Below, piece after piece: positions 9,785-18,015 of a DNA stretch of 64,000 nt (position 1 is its first letter; the number at the start of each line of letters is the position of its first letter). The notes under the pieces were generated by a model. The model worked only from the letters and a program-made list of their open reading frames with translations, was not told the origin of the DNA and did no database searches. Origin of the DNA: Acidobacteriota bacterium (GTDB lineage Bacteria; Acidobacteriota; Terriglobia; Acidiferrales; UBA7541). The translations under genes were made by a program, and so were the position numbers. The stretch spans positions 1-64,000 of the forward strand of contig JAKASX010000008.1 of NCBI GenBank assembly GCA_021818865.1, in the 5' to 3' direction.

Positions 9785-10621
9785 CTAGAAATGGGTGAGC
9801 GTGCCGTTGATTCGGGTTCGCCGCAGCGCCCAGGCGAATACCACCAGCGAAAGCGGAAGCAGCACGAGCGCGAAGGCGCCGAGCGCGGCGATTTGCGGCC
9901 ATAACCGTCCGATGCCAACGCCGCCGAGCAGCGCCTGCCGCATGCCTTCGAGCGAATAGGTAAGCGGGATCAGCCGAGCCAGCAGCCGCAGCGGCGCCGG
10001 CAGGATTCTGACCGGATACATCATTCCCCCGAGAAGCGCCGAAAGCCCCAGGAAAATCCATTTGGCCGGGTTCCCCCGCTTGAAAATCATCTGATAGCTG
10101 GCGGAAATGATGCCCAGCCCGGTGAACGCGAGAATCGAGAACAGCAAAATCAGCAGGGCCCCCGGCCAATCGGCGGTCGCAAGCGGCAGGTGAAACAGGA
10201 TCACTCCCCAAACCAGGTAAACGGCGGTGCGCAGCGACGTGAGGACGAAAGGATAGAGCGCCGAGCCGGTCAGAATCACCGGCAGCGACGCCTCGGTAAC
10301 GAGCAGGGCCTCGAGCGTACGGTTGCGGCGGGCGTCGTCGATGCTGCTATCGAAAGCGTTGAGTCCCGCCGAGAGGTAATCGAAGAAGGCCAGGCCGATC
10401 AACGCGAACGCGAAATAGCTGGTGCCTGCCGGAAGGCTTTTTTGCAGCTTGTCGCTCGCGACGAACTGGGAAAGGAAGTAGAAGGAAGCGACGCCGAAGA
10501 GGGCGTTGACGGCGTCGAGCAGGAAGGCGACGCGATAGGTGCGCGCCGTGAGCATATCCCGGCGAAAGAGATAAGCCATTTGCCTGGCGACCTTCCGCCA
10601 TTCGAGCGGAGGCTTGCTCAT
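9785..10621 (-). CDS. ABC-2 type transporter permease
   Basis: The 278-residue protein has a cytoplasmic N-terminal helix and six hydrophobic segments (roughly 28-52, 65-88, 113-140, 145-170, 180-200 and 238-262), the ABC-2 permease plan. Its ATG overlaps the stop of the ATPase gene by 4 nt, so the two are translated together and form a half-transporter that would dimerise. Substrate is not evident. The pair is divergent from the lasso operon across a gap of about 300 nt, so it could export the peptide or confer immunity; that is inference from position only. Confidence 0.88.
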   Translation of the reverse strand: MSKPPLEWRKVARQMAYLFRRDMLTARTYRVAFLLDAVNALFGVASFYFLSQFVASDKLQKSLPAGTSYFAFALIGLAFFDYLSAGLNAFDSSIDDARRNRTLEALLVTEASLPVILTGSALYPFVLTSLRTAVYLVWGVILFHLPLATADWPGALLILLFSILAFTGLGIISASYQMIFKRGNPAKWIFLGLSALLGGMMYPVRILPAPLRLLARLIPLTYSLEGMRQALLGGVGIGRLWPQIAALGAFALVLLPLSLVVFAWALRRTRINGTLTHF

Positions 10622-11418
10622 TGCGGTGCTCCCCCAGGGCCGGTCCGCGCGAGCAGATTTTCGATCGCCTGCTGCACGGTCGGGGCGCCCGTCGAACGGC
10701 GAAGCGCTTCAGGCGCATCGCACGTCAGCAACTCGCCGGCGTGGAGCAGCGCGACCCGGTCGGCGAGTTCCTCGACTTCGCTCAGAATGTGGGATGCGAA
10801 GAGAACCGTCGTTCCCTGGCGCTTGACCAGATTCTTCAGCACGGCGCGAAATTCCGCTGAGGCAACCGGGTCGAGACTCCGCGTTGGCTCGTCGAGCAGC
10901 ACCACCGGCGGCCGATGCAGGATGGCGCGGGCGAGGCCGAGCCGATTGATCGTTCCCGAAGACAGCGTGCGCGTCTGGCGCTCGAGCGCGGGGCCGAGCC
11001 CCAGATGCTCGGTCAATTCGGCGATGCGTTGCCGGGTTGTCTGCGGCGAAAGACCGCTCATCGCGCCGAAGAATCCCAGATTTTCGCGGCCGGTGAGCCG
11101 GCTGTAGAAGCCGAAGTCGGCGCCGCTGTGATAGCCGATGTGACGCCGCACCTGGGCCGGTTCGCGTTCGACGTCGAATCCGGCGATCAACGCGCGGCCG
11201 CTGGTCGGGACGAGCAAGGTGGAAAGAATCCGGAGTAGAGTGGATTTCCCGGCGCCGTTTTCACCGACGAGGGCGAGCACGGTTCCTTCCTCCACCTGAA
11301 ACGAGATCTTTCCGAGAGCCCTCACCGTGGCTGGGGCGACCACCTGCAGCAGGGTGCGCCAGCCGGAATAGGCCGGAGGGAACTGTTTCGTAAGCTCGTC
11401 GGCGAGAATCGTGGACAC
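10618..11418 (-). CDS. ABC transporter ATP-binding protein
   Basis: GTG 11418 follows AAGGA by a 6-nt spacer and gives a 266-residue ATPase starting VSTILADELTKQF. Motifs are Walker A GENGAGKST, the signature LSSGTINR (a variant of LSGGQ), Walker B VVLLDEPT and the H-loop ASHILSEVEE. The segment before Walker A (KQFPPAYSGWRTLLQVVAP) is longer than in most family members. It drives the ABC-2 permease encoded by the overlapping downstream gene. Codons upstream of 11418 are in frame but lack a ribosome site and family similarity. Confidence 0.9.
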   Translation of the reverse strand: MSTILADELTKQFPPAYSGWRTLLQVVAPATVRALGKISFQVEEGTVLALVGENGAGKSTLLRILSTLLVPTSGRALIAGFDVEREPAQVRRHIGYHSGADFGFYSRLTGRENLGFFGAMSGLSPQTTRQRIAELTEHLGLGPALERQTRTLSSGTINRLGLARAILHRPPVVLLDEPTRSLDPVASAEFRAVLKNLVKRQGTTVLFASHILSEVEELADRVALLHAGELLTCDAPEALRRSTGAPTVQQAIENLLARTGPGGAPQ

Positions 11419-11603
11419 GGGTAATCCTTGCGCGCCGGCTATTATGTCCGGCGAGCTGCGGCCTCGGCAAACCCGCAGGGGTGGGAAGACCCATTCTGGG
11501 AAAGCCCAAAACCGTTTTTCAGGGTGGGCTGGATTGGGCTGAGAGTGGGGGTGCGAGGGTGCGCCTGATGATTTCGGCGTTAAGAGACGGGAAAAGCAAG
11601 GGT

Positions 11604-11620
11604 TTTGGTACCTTTGGTAC
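11604..11620. repeat. tandem TTTGGTAC repeat upstream of the lasso operon
   Basis: Two copies of TTTGGTAC occur at 11604-11611 and 11613-11620, a 9-nt period, with GGTACC in between. They lie about 45 nt upstream of the likely -10 element of the lasso operon, a suitable place for an activator or repressor site. The rest of the 302-nt gap 11419-11720 holds only the promoter candidate and no gene I can support. Confidence 0.4.
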
Positions 11621-11664
11621 TGCCGGAACGCGCACACCCGCTATCTTCCGTTGTCTCGCTTTGT

Positions 11665-11720: not shown

Positions 11721-12002
11721 TTGGCCATTTCCTTCAGCACGCGCGTCGTGGTGCCTCCGCACGTCTTGTTGCAGCAGGTGGGCGGGGAATCGGTGCTGCT
11801 GAACGTGCAAAAGGAATGTTATTTCGGGCTCGATCCGGTGGGAACGCGCATGTGGGAGGCGCTGACGAAGGGCAATACGGTCGAGGCCGCGTATGAGGAA
11901 CTCCTCCGGACGTACGACGTGGATGCCGAGCGGCTGCGACGGGATTTGGAAGGGCTGATCGAAAAGCTGATCGAGAACGGCTTGCTAGAGACCGAGGGAT
12001 GA
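11721..12002 (+). CDS. PqqD-like lasso precursor recognition protein (B1)
   Basis: This 93-residue PqqD-family protein is a RiPP recognition element. Typical features are QQVGGESVLLNVQKECYFGLDPVGTRMWEAL and a helical C-terminus (RLRRDLEGLIEKLIENGLLE). In lasso pathways the B1 protein binds the precursor leader and delivers it to the peptidase. The start is a TTG, supported by GGGGGAG 7 nt upstream; the nearby GTG at 11714 is out of frame. The stop overlaps the B2 start as ATGA, which shows coupled translation. Confidence 0.9.
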   Translation: MAISFSTRVVVPPHVLLQQVGGESVLLNVQKECYFGLDPVGTRMWEALTKGNTVEAAYEELLRTYDVDAERLRRDLEGLIEKLIENGLLETEG

Positions 12003-12451
12003 GCAGCTGGGATAAATTTCGGCGGCTTCCGCGCAAGGAAAAGACTGTGTTTCTGGCGGCGTTTCTGCTGCTGCTAGCGGTGCGTGCGGGGTTGGCGGCG
12101 CTAGGATTGCGGCGCGTGGAGAGCCTGGTGAGCCGCGGCGCGAGGGCGCACAAGCGGCCAGAGCCGGAACAGGCGATTTTTCTGGCGCGGCGGACGGCCC
12201 GGCTGGTGGCCGTGGCGGCGCGTTACGCGGGTGGGTCGTGCCTGGCGCGATCCGTCGTGCTGTGCCTGCTGCTCGAGCGGCGCGGCGTACCGGCTCGGCT
12301 GCGGATCGGGGTTCGGAAGCAGGGAGATGAATTTCAGGCGCATGCGTGGGTGGAAGCGGCGGGAATCACATTGAATGAAGCGCCTGACATCGGATTGCGC
12401 TACGCCGCGTTCGAGAGGGATTTTGCCCTGGCGCGAGGGAACCACCGATGA
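11999..12451 (+). CDS. lasso peptide leader peptidase (B2, transglutaminase-like)
   Basis: The 150-residue protein matches the Transglut_core3 family of lasso maturases. A hydrophobic stretch lies at 17-36, the catalytic cysteine is C81 in GGSCLARS, the histidine is H115 in QAHAWVE, and an acidic residue is at E127 or D130. B2 cleaves the leader from the precursor just before ring closure. It overlaps B1 and the cyclase gene by 4 nt each (ATGA), so the three are translated as a unit. Confidence 0.92.
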   Translation: MSSWDKFRRLPRKEKTVFLAAFLLLLAVRAGLAALGLRRVESLVSRGARAHKRPEPEQAIFLARRTARLVAVAARYAGGSCLARSVVLCLLLERRGVPARLRIGVRKQGDEFQAHAWVEAAGITLNEAPDIGLRYAAFERDFALARGNHR

Positions 12452-14328
12452 GCGGTTTCGCCGGCATCGTGAATCTGGACGGCGCGCCGGTGGATGGCGC
12501 GCTGCTCGCCCGTTTCGAAGAGCTGCTCCGCGAGCGCGGACCGGACGGTCAAGGGATCTGGGCGGAAGGAAATGTAGGTCTGGTGCACACGCTTTTTTGC
12601 ACGACGGACGAAGCGCGGGGCGAGCGACAGCCGATGAGCCTTGACGGCCGGGTGTGGATCGTTGCCGATGCGCGGCTGGATGGACGCAGGGATTTGATCG
12701 CCGAACTGCGCGGGCGGGGATGCGCCTGTGCGGCGAGTTCCACGGAACCGGAATTGATTTTGCACGCCTACTCGGTTTGGGGCGAAGGGTGCGTGGAACA
12801 TCTGCTGGGCGATTTCGCGTTTGCCGTCTGGGACCGGCACGAGCGGAAGCTCTTTTGCGCGCGGGACCATTTCGGCGTGCGGCCGTTCTTCTACGCGCAC
12901 GTTGACAGAGCTTTCGTTTTCAGCAACTCGATGGACGCGCCGCGGCTCCATCCGGACGTTCCAGACGATTTGGACGAATGCGCGATCGCCGATTTTCTGG
13001 TTCTCGGTAGCAATTTCGACTTGGAGAGCACGGCGCGGGCCGCGATTCGCCGCTTGGCGCCGGCGCACGCGCTCATCGTCGCCGATGGGGAAGTGCGGAG
13101 GCGGCGATACTGGACTTTGCCGGTTGATCCTCCGACGGTGTTTCGGCGCTCGCGGGATTACGTCGAACGGTTTTTGGAGCTTTTCGAGCAGGCGGTCGCG
13201 GACCGTTTGCGCACCGACCGCGCAGCGGTGTTGATGAGCGGCGGCATGGATTCGTGTTCGGTGGGGGCAATGGCAAAGCGCGCGGCGAGCAGGCGGAGCG
13301 CGGGCTGCTCGATCACTGCGCATACGCAGACGTACCACCATCTGATTCCTTTTGAGGAGGGGCGCTTCGCCAGCCTGGCCGCGAGGGAGATCGGAATCGC
13401 GTGGAGCGAGTTTCCTCTCGACGACAAGCAATTGCTCGGGTATTGGAACCGATCCGAATTCCGACGCCCGGAGCCGGCGCTCGTTCCCCTGTTCGACTGG
13501 ACGCTCGCGGACGTACTGGGCAAGCCACTCCCGGCGCGAGTGGTTCTAACCGGACAGGGCAGCGATGGGATTTTTTCGAGCTTGCGAATGCGCCATTGCC
13601 GCGATCGCATCCGCGAGGGACAGTGGCTGCGGTTGGCGAAGGAAGTCTCCGGGCACTTGTTTTGCGAAGGGCGCATGCGGCGGCTTCGCATCCTTCCCGG
13701 CATGCGGGCGCGTTTTGGCGGCGGGGTTCCCGCCAGACCTTTCCCGGACTGGTTGAATCCGAATCTGGATCGCCGGTTGAACCTGCGCGAGAGGTACGAG
13801 CAATACGAAGTGCGACCGGTTTCGAGCGCGGTGCCAGAACGGGCGGTTCGGCCGGAGGCGTATGGGTTGATGAGTTCTCCGATGTGGGCTGGGTTATTCG
13901 ATGAGTACGATCCCGATAACGCCGGAGGCCGCTTCGAGGCGCGACATCCGTTTTTCGATTTGCGGCTGGCACGATACGCGCTCAGCTTGCCTGCCATGCC
14001 TTGGTGCTCAGACAAAGAACTGTTGCGGCGTTCGATGTGCGGTGTGTTGCCGGACGCGATCAGGCTCGGGAGGAAGCGGCCGATTCGAAGCGACCTGATG
14101 ATGGCGTTCTATCGCAGCAGCGGAAAGCCCTGGCTGGAGCGTTTCGAACCTGTAGAACATCTCGATCAGTTCGTGGATGTAAAACGGGCGATCGAACGGG
14201 CAAAGGCACCCCCTCCGTGGGAGGTGTTCGTGCACCTTCGCCCAATTTGCCTGAATTATTGGTTGAACTGGGAGTCCAAATACGCGTATAAGATACCGAA
14301 GGAGGAGTGTCGTGCCCAATCCTGTTAA
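12448..14328 (+). CDS. lasso peptide cyclase (C, asparagine-synthetase-like)
   Basis: The 626-residue protein has an N-terminal glutaminase-like domain (MSGFAGIVNLDG) in which the catalytic Cys2 of asparagine synthetase is replaced by Ser. The synthetase domain carries the ATP-binding loop SGGMDS at 264-269. Loss of Cys2 is typical of lasso cyclases, which adenylate an Asp or Glu side chain and join it to the new N-terminus. The C-terminus ends AQSC. Its last 17 nt overlap the precursor gene, and GGAGGAG inside its coding sequence acts as the precursor's ribosome site. Confidence 0.93.
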   Translation: MSGFAGIVNLDGAPVDGALLARFEELLRERGPDGQGIWAEGNVGLVHTLFCTTDEARGERQPMSLDGRVWIVADARLDGRRDLIAELRGRGCACAASSTEPELILHAYSVWGEGCVEHLLGDFAFAVWDRHERKLFCARDHFGVRPFFYAHVDRAFVFSNSMDAPRLHPDVPDDLDECAIADFLVLGSNFDLESTARAAIRRLAPAHALIVADGEVRRRRYWTLPVDPPTVFRRSRDYVERFLELFEQAVADRLRTDRAAVLMSGGMDSCSVGAMAKRAASRRSAGCSITAHTQTYHHLIPFEEGRFASLAAREIGIAWSEFPLDDKQLLGYWNRSEFRRPEPALVPLFDWTLADVLGKPLPARVVLTGQGSDGIFSSLRMRHCRDRIREGQWLRLAKEVSGHLFCEGRMRRLRILPGMRARFGGGVPARPFPDWLNPNLDRRLNLRERYEQYEVRPVSSAVPERAVRPEAYGLMSSPMWAGLFDEYDPDNAGGRFEARHPFFDLRLARYALSLPAMPWCSDKELLRRSMCGVLPDAIRLGRKRPIRSDLMMAFYRSSGKPWLERFEPVEHLDQFVDVKRAIERAKAPPPWEVFVHLRPICLNYWLNWESKYAYKIPKEECRAQSC

Positions 14329-14461
14329 GGTGCCTTACCAGAAGCCTGAGTTGCGTGTCTATGGTACGCTGCGTGAATTGACGCTCACAGGCAGCGGCAA
14401 TGCTTTGGACTGCACGCCCAACAATAACAGCAATCCCCAACACTCCAGCGTCTGCGGGTAA
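14312..14461 (+). CDS. lasso peptide precursor (A)
   Basis: GTG 14312 follows GGAGG by about 6 nt and encodes 49 residues. Leader residues 9-24 read YQKPELRVYGTLRELT, a perfect fit to the lasso leader pattern YxxPxLxxxGxxxxLT that the B1 protein binds. With Thr24 at the usual -2 position, the core starts at Thr26. Asp33 then falls at core position 8 and would close an eight-residue ring (TGSGNALD). The 16-residue tail runs from Cys34 to Gly49, is Asn-rich (37-41) and has a second cysteine at 48, so a disulfide is possible. Starting at Gly27 would give a seven-residue ring. By my hand sum the cyclised core is near 2355 Da. Confidence 0.88.
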   Translation: MPNPVKVPYQKPELRVYGTLRELTLTGSGNALDCTPNNNSNPQHSSVCG

Positions 14462-14487
14462 GTTCGCGGAGTGAAGCACAGGCCCGC

Positions 14488-15519
14488 TTGTTCCGGTATA
14501 AGCTGCAGGGACTGCTCCTAGAGTCCGACCGGGCGCTGCCCACGCTAACGGCGCTGGGCGCGGCCGGCAAGCCGGACGTGGAGTTCCGAACAGGTTTCCT
14601 CCCTGGGGAGTTGGATGTGGAGGGGCTACGGAGAGGCGAACCTGCCTACGTTAGCCCCTTTTGCGATTCCAACGGCCAGGCACTCTCCCGGATGTGGCGT
14701 TGTCCGACCAGCGGTCTCTATTATTTCGACTTCATCGAAGGCTTTGCGTTCGCGGTCGATTCCGACGGGAAAACGATCTGGGCGTACTGGCCGGAAACCA
14801 TAACTCTCCAGGACATCACGGCTTTTCTGCTGGGGCGGATGCTCGCGTTCGTTTTGCATTTGCGCGGGTACGTATGCCTGCATGCCAGCGCCGTTGCCGT
14901 TGAAGGCGGAGCGGTGCTCTTCGCCGGTTTTCCTGGCATGGGAAAATCCACCACGGCGGCGGCTTTCGCGGAGCGAGGCTATCCCATTTTATCCGACGAC
15001 GTCTCGGCGATTCGGCGAGAACCGAACGGCACGATAGCGGTCATGCCTGGCGTTCCTCGCGTATGCCTGTTGCCTGATTCGCTCGAGTTTCTCTTCGGTG
15101 CGGTTTCATCGGAACGGTTCCCTCTTTTGGAACCCGCCGGGAGCAAGCGGTTGGTGCGGCTGGACGGGTCGCCGGGCAAATTTCAGACTGATCCCAGGCC
15201 GCTGGAGGCGATCTACCTTCTCGAACCACGCAGCGACGATGCCTCGGCACCGCGGATCGAGGCTGTTGCCGGGGCCGACCGCCTGATTCGGCTGCTGTAC
15301 AACGGCTTCATGAACCTGGCGCTCGACAAGGAACAGGCGGCGCGCGAGTTTCAGATGCTGGGCGAAATCGCTCGCAGTATTCGTATACGGCAGCTCGTGC
15401 CATCGAGCGATCCGAGGAAATTAGACCGGCTTTGCGAACTCGTGGTGAACGACGTCCGTGCGTCGAACGTTTCGATCGCCGGCCCCTCCGCTGAAACCCT
15501 GGGCTGTCTGGAACGGTAG
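14488..15519 (+). CDS. HPr-kinase-like protein of the lasso cluster
   Basis: The 343-residue protein resembles the C-terminal domain of HPr kinase. It has CLHASAVAV, then Walker A GFPGMGKST at 147-155, then ILSDDV. Such kinases in lasso clusters phosphorylate the peptide; in paeninodin the target is the C-terminal serine. Here the peptide ends in Cys-Gly, so the target must be an internal Ser, Thr or other residue. The start is a TTG with only a weak ribosome site. I chose it because the protein begins LFRYKLQGLLLES and no ATG or GTG is in frame nearby. It lies 26 nt after the precursor stop. Confidence 0.8.
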   Translation: MFRYKLQGLLLESDRALPTLTALGAAGKPDVEFRTGFLPGELDVEGLRRGEPAYVSPFCDSNGQALSRMWRCPTSGLYYFDFIEGFAFAVDSDGKTIWAYWPETITLQDITAFLLGRMLAFVLHLRGYVCLHASAVAVEGGAVLFAGFPGMGKSTTAAAFAERGYPILSDDVSAIRREPNGTIAVMPGVPRVCLLPDSLEFLFGAVSSERFPLLEPAGSKRLVRLDGSPGKFQTDPRPLEAIYLLEPRSDDASAPRIEAVAGADRLIRLLYNGFMNLALDKEQAAREFQMLGEIARSIRIRQLVPSSDPRKLDRLCELVVNDVRASNVSIAGPSAETLGCLER

Positions 15520-15567: not shown

Positions 15568-16731
15568 GTGGGAGCTGTCTCACAACTGCCCCGCGAGCCG
15601 GGGCATGCGGATTTGCAGCCCGAGCATCGGTTAGTGGTGGCCTGCGCGGGGCTGCGCCTATCGACGGACCAGCGCGAAGAAGTCGTTTCGCTGCTGGGAT
15701 CTCCTCTCAATTGGCCGCTGGTGGTGGAAACGTCGCGAGCGCAGCGCGTTGTGGCGTTGTGCTACGAGGCGCTTCAGCAACTTGGGCCGGGCGCCGTGCC
15801 GGGGGAAGTGATGGCGGCGTTTCGCGCCGATGCCATGGCGATTGCCGGGCGGAATCTGCAATTGGCGGCCAAACTTACCGAAATCACCGACGTTGCCGAA
15901 CGCTCGGGTATCGCGCTGTTACCCTACAAGGGCCCAGTGCTCGCCGAAATGGCCTACGGAAATCTGGCCCTGCGCGAGTTCGTGGACCTGGATTTTATTT
16001 TGCCGCATCGCGATCTGGCCTCAGCGTGGAAATTGCTCGAGAGCCTCGGTTACCTTCCGCGGAACCCGTCTCTGGCCGCTCGGGGCGCACCGATTCCCGG
16101 TGAATACGTTTTTCAGCAGGAGAAAAGCGGCGTTCAGGTGGAATTGCACACGGAACTCACGCTGCGGCATTTTCCTTCACCACCCGATCTCGCACCGCTC
16201 CTTGCCGCACGCGAGCAAGTGACGGTAGCCGGCCGGCGCGTTTTGACATTTTCTAGGGAAGACACGCTGACGTTGCTCGCGGTGCATGGCGCGAAGGATT
16301 TCTGGGCGGAACTGCTCTGGGTTTGCGATATCGCGTGGCTGATCGAAACGCCTGGATTTGACTGGACGGCCGCACTCGGCCGCGCCGACCAAATGGCTTG
16401 CCGGCGGATGGTCAACGTGGCGCTGCTGCTGGCGAGCGAACTTCTGAAAGCAACCATCCCGAAACCTGCGATAGCGGCCACGCAATCCGACGCCGCGGCG
16501 CAGGCGCAGGCGCGCCGGCTTGCCTCGCGAATTTTTGCTCCACACCCGCTTTCCCGTTCCGGACAGATTCGCTACCGCATGCGGATGGTGGAGGGGTTGC
16601 TGCCCGGAATCCGCTACGCGGCGCGCCTGGCAACGACGCCCGCCGCCGACGATTGGAACGCGCTGCAGTTGCCGAGCCGATTCAGCTTTGCCTATGCGCT
16701 GTTGAGGCCGTTGCGGCTGCTGCGACGTTAG
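15568..16731 (+). CDS. nucleotidyltransferase-family protein of the lasso cluster (PF14907-like)
   Basis: The 387-residue protein has the core LPYKGPVLAEMAYGNLALREFVDLDFIL. D140 and D142 form the paired metal-binding aspartates of the nucleotidyltransferase fold, as in the PF14907 family. Such proteins recur beside kinases in lasso clusters, where they are thought to modify the phosphorylated peptide further. The C-terminus is basic (RPLRLLRR). The start is GTG 15568, 48 nt after the kinase gene. It is the last gene of the operon; the next gene is convergent. Confidence 0.82.
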   Translation: MGAVSQLPREPGHADLQPEHRLVVACAGLRLSTDQREEVVSLLGSPLNWPLVVETSRAQRVVALCYEALQQLGPGAVPGEVMAAFRADAMAIAGRNLQLAAKLTEITDVAERSGIALLPYKGPVLAEMAYGNLALREFVDLDFILPHRDLASAWKLLESLGYLPRNPSLAARGAPIPGEYVFQQEKSGVQVELHTELTLRHFPSPPDLAPLLAAREQVTVAGRRVLTFSREDTLTLLAVHGAKDFWAELLWVCDIAWLIETPGFDWTAALGRADQMACRRMVNVALLLASELLKATIPKPAIAATQSDAAAQAQARRLASRIFAPHPLSRSGQIRYRMRMVEGLLPGIRYAARLATTPAADDWNALQLPSRFSFAYALLRPLRLLRR

Positions 16732-16815: not shown

Positions 16816-17901
16816 TTAGTCGAGGATGGATCGCAGAATCCGGCCGAGCGCCTCGACCGAATGCTGTTCGGCTAATTCTTTGCGCTTTTGCCGTAAGGGG
16901 CTGTCAGCGGGTTCGGCGAGCGCCGTTTCCACGGCGCGCTCCAATTCTTTGGCGGTTTCGCCGAGAAACAGGAGGTCCTCGTATTCCCACAGGTGGATGA
17001 GCGGAGTCGCCACAACCGGGGTTCCCAGCGCGAAATAATCCCACAATTTCATGGGCGGCCCGTTGTAGAGGACGGTGTTCGAGCAGTCGTAAGGCATGAG
17101 GCCAACGTCGAACGACGCCACGCACTCGGCAAATTCCCTGGGAGCCTGCCAAGGCAAGGAATGGGCGTTGGACAGCGTTGCGACCGGTGAGATGCGCGAT
17201 TGCTTGGTTCTCGCCTGAAAAGAGGCGAAATTCCAGTCCGGACGCCTTTCCAGCAATTCGCGAAGGAGGGGAATATTCAGGAAGTCGCTGGCAAAAGCGC
17301 CCGCGTAACCGAGCCGAGGGCGCGGAACCCCGGACAAAACGGCGGCGGGATTTTCCGGACTTGCGCGAAGGTTGCGAAACGGGCGGAGGTCAATTCCGTG
17401 TGGAACCTGGCGAATCTTATCGCCCCACACGGCACGCATTCTGTGACAGAGGGTTCGAGAAAACGCCAGGGTCAAATCGGATTGCGCCACGTGGAGCGGG
17501 GACAAGTTCTCCACGTAGTCCATCGCGACGTGCACCGGCCTGCAGCCCCGCTGCCTGACGGCCTCGCACATGGGAGCAAGAAATTTCCCCAGATTGGCGT
17601 ATAGAAAGACAGGTTTCTCCATCCCGAGCGACCGGGCGTGGTCGAAAATTTGCCGCACGACCATATCGCTCTGAATCCGAGGCAACGCGGGCAGCCGATT
17701 CAGCCGGTGGGAGTAGACCCAAGGCTTGAAAGTGAACAGGTTCGGCTCGATTTGGCGAAGACGAACGTCCGGCTTTTTGAGCGCGGAAGCGGCGGAGTCG
17801 CAATGCAGGACCTTGACGCCGACCCGGGCGAGAGCCAAGGCCACGCGTTCGATAGCGTTCGCCGTTTCCCAGTCGTAGCCGAAGACGATGGCGTCCTTCA
17901 C
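16816..17901 (-). CDS. glycosyltransferase, GT-B type
   Basis: From GTG 17901 the product has 361 residues. It starts VKDAIVFGYDWETANA, a Rossmann-like N-terminus, and ends in a typical glycosyltransferase C-terminal half: RLGYAGAF, VPHGID, DVGLMPYDCS and PMKLWDYFALGTPVVATP, which resembles the nucleotide-sugar binding region. I chose GTG because GGAGAGG lies 9 nt upstream; a longer ATG frame to 17991 lacks such a site. It converges on the lasso operon. It may build a surface glycan. A role in modifying the lasso peptide is possible but only suggested by position. Confidence 0.8.
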   Translation of the reverse strand: MKDAIVFGYDWETANAIERVALALARVGVKVLHCDSAASALKKPDVRLRQIEPNLFTFKPWVYSHRLNRLPALPRIQSDMVVRQIFDHARSLGMEKPVFLYANLGKFLAPMCEAVRQRGCRPVHVAMDYVENLSPLHVAQSDLTLAFSRTLCHRMRAVWGDKIRQVPHGIDLRPFRNLRASPENPAAVLSGVPRPRLGYAGAFASDFLNIPLLRELLERRPDWNFASFQARTKQSRISPVATLSNAHSLPWQAPREFAECVASFDVGLMPYDCSNTVLYNGPPMKLWDYFALGTPVVATPLIHLWEYEDLLFLGETAKELERAVETALAEPADSPLRQKRKELAEQHSVEALGRILRSILD

Positions 17902-18015
17902 AGCTTCTAGCCTCTCCGCGCCTCGCTGCAACAGCCAATTACAAGGACGAGCGCCCCCAAAGGCAGCCTGGAGCCACTCGTTCCCGGGCACAAACGGGCA
18001 ATATCGGTACCGCGT

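Follow-up and report, generated by a model that had tools for sequence, protein, structure and literature searches.

The window, by which we mean the whole 64,000-nucleotide stretch of DNA from an uncultured acidobacterium, carries an operon in the order B1-B2-C-A-K-N, with A a lasso-peptide precursor gene (Table 1). The enzyme set that marks a lasso cluster is present, namely a RiPP recognition element (B1), a transglutaminase-like peptidase (B2) and an asparagine-synthetase-like cyclase (C), and A has a YxxPxL leader with Thr at -2 and, within the core 7-9 interval in which the ring-closing Asp or Glu is expected, an Asp at core 8 that is invariant in five orthologs. The glutaminase nucleophile of asparagine synthetase is a Cys; residue 2, after Met, is Ser rather than Cys in all 51 cyclases with a readable start, so this nucleophile is lost in C. 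K and N lie directly behind A, and neither was mentioned in a preliminary description of this DNA. No canonical lasso transporter was found in the operon. An ABC pair at 9785-11637 was considered as a lasso exporter and rejected: it is linked to unrelated neighbouring genes, no copy was found next to the cluster in genome G138, and it is probably no more than chromosomal context. On the other side, a glycosyltransferase gene on the minus strand (16816-17991), convergent to N and also found beside the cluster in G114, G138 and, in part, G186, may share in tailoring with N.

Table 1. Features of the lasso-peptide operon in the window, with the evidence for each.
Feature	Position	Strand	Evidence
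B1, PqqD-like RiPP recognition element, leader-binding	11721..12002	+	PF05402 2.3e-17; NCBIfam lasso PqqD models 1.5e-13, below strict cut-offs
B2, transglutaminase-like leader peptidase	11999..12451	+	NF033537 lasso_biosyn_B2 89.8 bits, cut-off 33
C, lasso cyclase, asparagine-synthetase-like	12448..14328	+	PF00733, PF13537; NF033535 E 1.4e-98, below strict cut-off
Shine-Dalgarno site of A	14302..14309	+	aaggagga in window and 3 orthologs; taggagga in fourth ortholog
A, lasso precursor, 49 codons	14312..14461	+	NF033521 match above cut-off; orthologs in 5/5 genus genomes
Core residues 1-8 (TGSGNALD), predicted macrolactam ring Thr26-Asp33	14387..14410	+	T1 and D8 unchanged across all five orthologs
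Cys34 (core 9), predicted disulfide partner	14411..14413	+	Sequence; paired Cys counts in orthologs
Ser45-Ser46 (core 20-21), predicted target of K, beside conserved His19	14444..14449	+	Inferred; equivalent to family's C-terminal-proximal [KRH]-Thr
Cys48 (core 23), predicted disulfide partner	14453..14455	+	Sequence; paired Cys counts in orthologs
K, HprK-like peptide kinase	14488..15519	+	TIGR04352 1.3e-12; PF07475 3.9e-6; HPr kinase in PDB 8e-5
N, nucleotidyltransferase-like protein	15568..16731	+	PF14907 6e-56; adjoins cluster in 5/5 genus genomes

The reading frame of A opens with a GTG at 14312, after aaggaggagtgtc, closes with a TAA ending at 14461, and shares 17 nt with the cyclase gene, whose stop lies 14 nt into A. 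It encodes MPNPVKVPYQKPELRVYGTLRELTLTGSGNALDCTPNNNSNPQHSSVCG, in which residues 1-25 form the leader and 26-49 the predicted core, so that T24 stands at -2, Y9 at -17, Asp33 at core 8, Cys34 at core 9 and Cys48 at core 23. On re-reading, the coordinates, length, start codon, cyclase overlap and peptide given in the preliminary description were all exact. A six-frame scan of the window finds the leader pattern Y..P.L...G.....T once, and 60 third-order Markov copies of the window contain it nowhere; the fuller YxxPxLxxxGxxxxLT proposed earlier goes too far only in its Leu before the last Thr, a position held by L, I, M or V in relatives. Ortholog comparisons drew on the window's genome and four others of the genus, all five of which carry the gene. 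GTG, Shine-Dalgarno site and cyclase overlap are common to four of them (the window and three others), and the fifth has an ATG and no overlap. Over 17 leader codons, changes among the four closer orthologs are mostly silent, third-position ones (11 silent against 2 replacing relative to G138), and changes in the core alter amino acids; this combination of conserved leader and variable core is what makes A resemble a RiPP precursor. The shortness of A and its GTG start within another gene would also suit a chance frame running untranslated across the cyclase end, an explanation that the orthologs, codon pattern, profile match and motif statistics contradict and that we consider vanishingly improbable. 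That A is a genuine gene is, on these sequence grounds, near certain. Nor is it invisible to annotation, since NCBI's lasso_leader_L3 model (NF033521) scores it at 23.4 bits against a cut-off of 19; with this match, a strong Shine-Dalgarno site and an overlap of only 17 nt, the expectation that ordinary gene callers would miss it is not supported.

To place the core, we used 51 precursors found downstream of cyclase genes across the bacterial family (five from the genus and 46 others), a comparison that had been proposed beforehand as a check. All 51 carry Thr at -2 at a fixed spacing to the leader Tyr, which argues for Thr26 as core position 1, as originally suggested. An ungapped alignment of the five genus cores has three invariant columns, Thr1, Asp8 and Ser15, and the invariance of the first two favours an eight-residue Thr1-Asp8 ring over a start at Gly27. 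Cleavage one residue later, giving a seven-residue Gly27-Asp33 ring, would put the usual first lasso residue in place, and rings of that size exist (e.g., huascopeptin, as cited in PMC13352647); yet core residue 2 reads G, A, S, A and S in the five orthologs where Thr26 never changes, and the shift would depart from the Thr(-2)/Tyr(-17) spacing of all 51 precursors. We therefore rejected this start on ortholog conservation and regard it as very unlikely, and a register with Thr26 at -2, which would leave a six-residue ring, was rejected on the same grounds. The eight-residue Thr26-Asp33 ring is thus the likely register. In the tail, one Cys directly follows the predicted ring and the other is next to last, just as first described. 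Cys counts per core in the five genus orthologs are 2, 2, 2, 2 and 0, and none of the 46 other family precursors contains any. Even counts in all five cores support pairing, with a chance of 0.03 for this split of eight Cys and 0.07 for all-even counts, values that come from a small sample of five cores. The earlier proposal of a disulfide gains from these counts as to pairing; its Cys9-Cys23 placement is not shared by the orthologs, whose Cys stand at 13/25, 13/19 and 7/16, the last pair with one Cys inside the ring. The cysteines could instead remain reduced or pair between two molecules, with the tail held by His44 or other residues. This would fit the G051 core, which lacks Cys and keeps the rest, and a His19 whose spacing from the ring is kept in four of the five orthologs, but it leaves the even counts in 5/5 and the lack of Cys elsewhere in the family unaccounted for, and we judge it somewhat unlikely. 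A disulfide in the mature A peptide is plausible. The cluster contains no thiol oxidase, and lasso-peptide disulfides seemingly form without one (PMC9266682).

K has the His, GxxGxGKS and Asp-Asp motifs, which are important for lasso kinases already described (PMC10368454), as expected of an HprK-like enzyme making a paeninodin-type phosphorylated lasso peptide, and relatives of K are present in 56 family loci. Almost all precursors of the kinase-bearing family loci L075-L127 have a [KRH]-Thr near the C-terminus: outside the genus, the last Thr comes after K, R or H in 41 of 46 precursors, and in 37 it lies 9-10 residues past the ring Asp. Since nearly every family locus also has a kinase gene, this Thr is a natural candidate for phosphorylation. 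Its counterpart in the genus is a His-x-Ser/Thr stretch, with His19 in four of five cores (one place later in the fifth) and Ser or Thr two residues past the His in all five; in the window it reads His44-Ser45-Ser46. The C-terminal Ser that serves as acceptor in paeninodin-type peptides is absent, A ending in Val-Cys-Gly, and the Ser/Thr at core 3 used by BsfK-type kinases is there as Ser28. The main rival to Ser45/Ser46 accordingly keeps the same lasso peptide and has K modify Ser3 in the ring. Several points speak for it, as BsfK of Bradymonas phosphorylates Ser3 of an Asp8-ring peptide (PMC10368454), Ser3 occurs in four of five genus orthologs, and the C-terminal residue of A is not Ser. 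Position 3 is nevertheless Gly in G051, which keeps K, and in 27 of the 46 precursors from elsewhere in the family, almost all accompanied by K (Ser or Thr stands there in 8/46, 5 Thr and 3 Ser), whereas the near-C-terminal Thr is close to universal; modification of Ser3 thus seems unlikely. The most likely target of K is Ser45/Ser46, phosphorylation of the A peptide being itself plausible, and N could perhaps decorate the phosphate.

The sequence establishes the gene, its operon and the conservation of the ring residues; from these we infer the cleavage site, ring, threading, disulfide and phosphorylation, and a biosynthetic route can be outlined. B1 would bind the YxxPxL leader, and K would phosphorylate a core hydroxyl on the linear precursor, the substrate that known lasso kinases modify (PMC9266682, PMC10368454). 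B2 would then cleave after Leu25, one residue past Thr24, freeing the amino group of Thr26, which C would couple to the side chain of Asp33 so that the ring closes around the tail. The product would be a threaded peptide of 24 residues with an eight-residue ring, whose Cys34 and Cys48 would afterwards oxidise to a class IV-like tail disulfide. Since the tail has no bulky aromatic plug, this disulfide could be the lock. A lasso-peptide operon of this kind is the explanation we hold with good confidence. By sequence, the cluster is a lasso cluster in every defining feature that sequence can address, with ring and threading predicted. It represents a known sort of natural product, a lasso-peptide variant of an unstudied family, and not a new sort of system.

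Among known systems, the window cluster resembles two groups and is a plain member of neither. Class IV peptides (LP2006, pandonodin, felipeptins) have one disulfide, both ends of which lie in the tail beyond the ring; A has two Cys, both after the ring, whose pairing is predicted from even ortholog counts, and it shares the long tail of pandonodin. Unlike these peptides, A has Thr1, no bulky plug, an HprK-like kinase, an NTP_transf_5 gene and an acidobacterial host, and its disulfide is a predicted one. The Bradymonas bsf cluster (BsfA, BsfK, BsfN; PMC10368454) matches the window in its separate B1 and B2, C, kinase and nucleotidyltransferase, as well as in the Asp8 ring, Ser3 and leader Tyr at -17. 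It differs in that BsfA has Gly1 and Ile(-2) where A has Thr1 and Thr(-2), and the window operon lacks the D transporter. Paeninodin and pseudomycoidin (PadeK, PsmK, PsmN; PMC9266682) share the HprK-like kinase, and pseudomycoidin also a nucleotidyltransferase-like partner, glycosylating in its case; their kinases modify a C-terminal Ser, whereas the window peptide ends in Cys-Gly. Metanodin (PMC12670498) is likewise a metagenome lasso peptide with a residue 1 other than Gly (Asn1) and a precursor that went unrecognised by software, but it is gammaproteobacterial, has an isopeptidase and no reported kinase, and is confirmed by mass. As to profile models, several family members exceed the cut-off of NCBIfam NF033528 (lasso_cyano), and the window precursor falls far below it (13.6 vs 33 bits) while exceeding that of leader model L3.

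The history of the operon differs along its length. Between the window and G114, protein identity is 88-91% in the flanks (the ABC ATPase row left out), 89% in B1 and 83% in B2, and then falls to 56% for the synthetase half of the cyclase and 52% for the kinase. At the DNA level, identity drops from ~87% to ~60% over the 13.25-15.6 kb interval and recovers in N. A tree of B1 and B2 pairs window and G114 (support 100/99), a pairing rejected by the cyclase synthetase domain and K together (AU p = 6e-7) and by each alone (p = 9e-4 and 2e-4, respectively). At 12448-15519, compared with the G114 locus L073, the synthetase domain, precursor and kinase thus conflict with B1/B2 and the flanks in the manner of a one-block exchange. 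The leader-reading part follows the genome, and the core-acting part has been exchanged or has diverged apart; that K shares this divergent history indirectly supports its acting on the core. Steady fast evolution of C and K is possible in part but was rejected as a full account, the tree conflict and the step from 88-91% in the flanks to 52% in the G114 kinase fitting exchange better. We put forward more tentatively, as a scenario somewhat less apt to hold than to fail, that the lasso peptides of the genus fall into three disulfide classes (none, ring-tail and tail-tail) through exchange of cyclase-precursor-kinase cassettes under a constant leader-reading pair, B1/B2, all of them combining a Thr1 ring with a tail that the kinase modifies.

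Precursor A also opens up an undescribed yet widespread lasso family, the cyclase being found in 59 of 89 genomes of this bacterial family. Compared with the rest of the family, the genus has rings of 8 rather than mostly 9 residues and tails of 16-19 rather than 7-14. Core residue 1 is Thr in all five genus precursors and, in the 46 others, Thr (13), Ser (10), Ala (9), Lys (6), Arg (4), Asn (2) or Gln (2). Thr1, initially called rare, is therefore the commonest choice in the family (18/51), and Gly1 is never seen (0/51). A literature search found no published Thr1 lasso peptide, although one may exist; Thr1 is unusual against published peptides and yet the rule in this genus. As a natural experiment, the family bears on Thr as the residue that opens the ring, on which parts of leader and core the lasso enzymes read, and on the question whether a bulky plug can give way to a disulfide; thanks to the conserved Thr near the C-terminus, the target of the kinase can be tested directly. 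In eight precursors with the shared leader register (L076, L082, L083, L085, L091, L098, L111 and L122), the first ring-competent acid stands at core 10, or 11 in one case, outside the published 7-9 range, and ten-residue lasso rings or other cleavage sites are possible readings of the core-10 acids. The sister clade of the window's genus mixes positions 8, 9, 10 and 11 for this acid. Locus L091 has a pseudogene-like cyclase match with several stop codons, and at L105 two tandem precursors lie behind a single cyclase.
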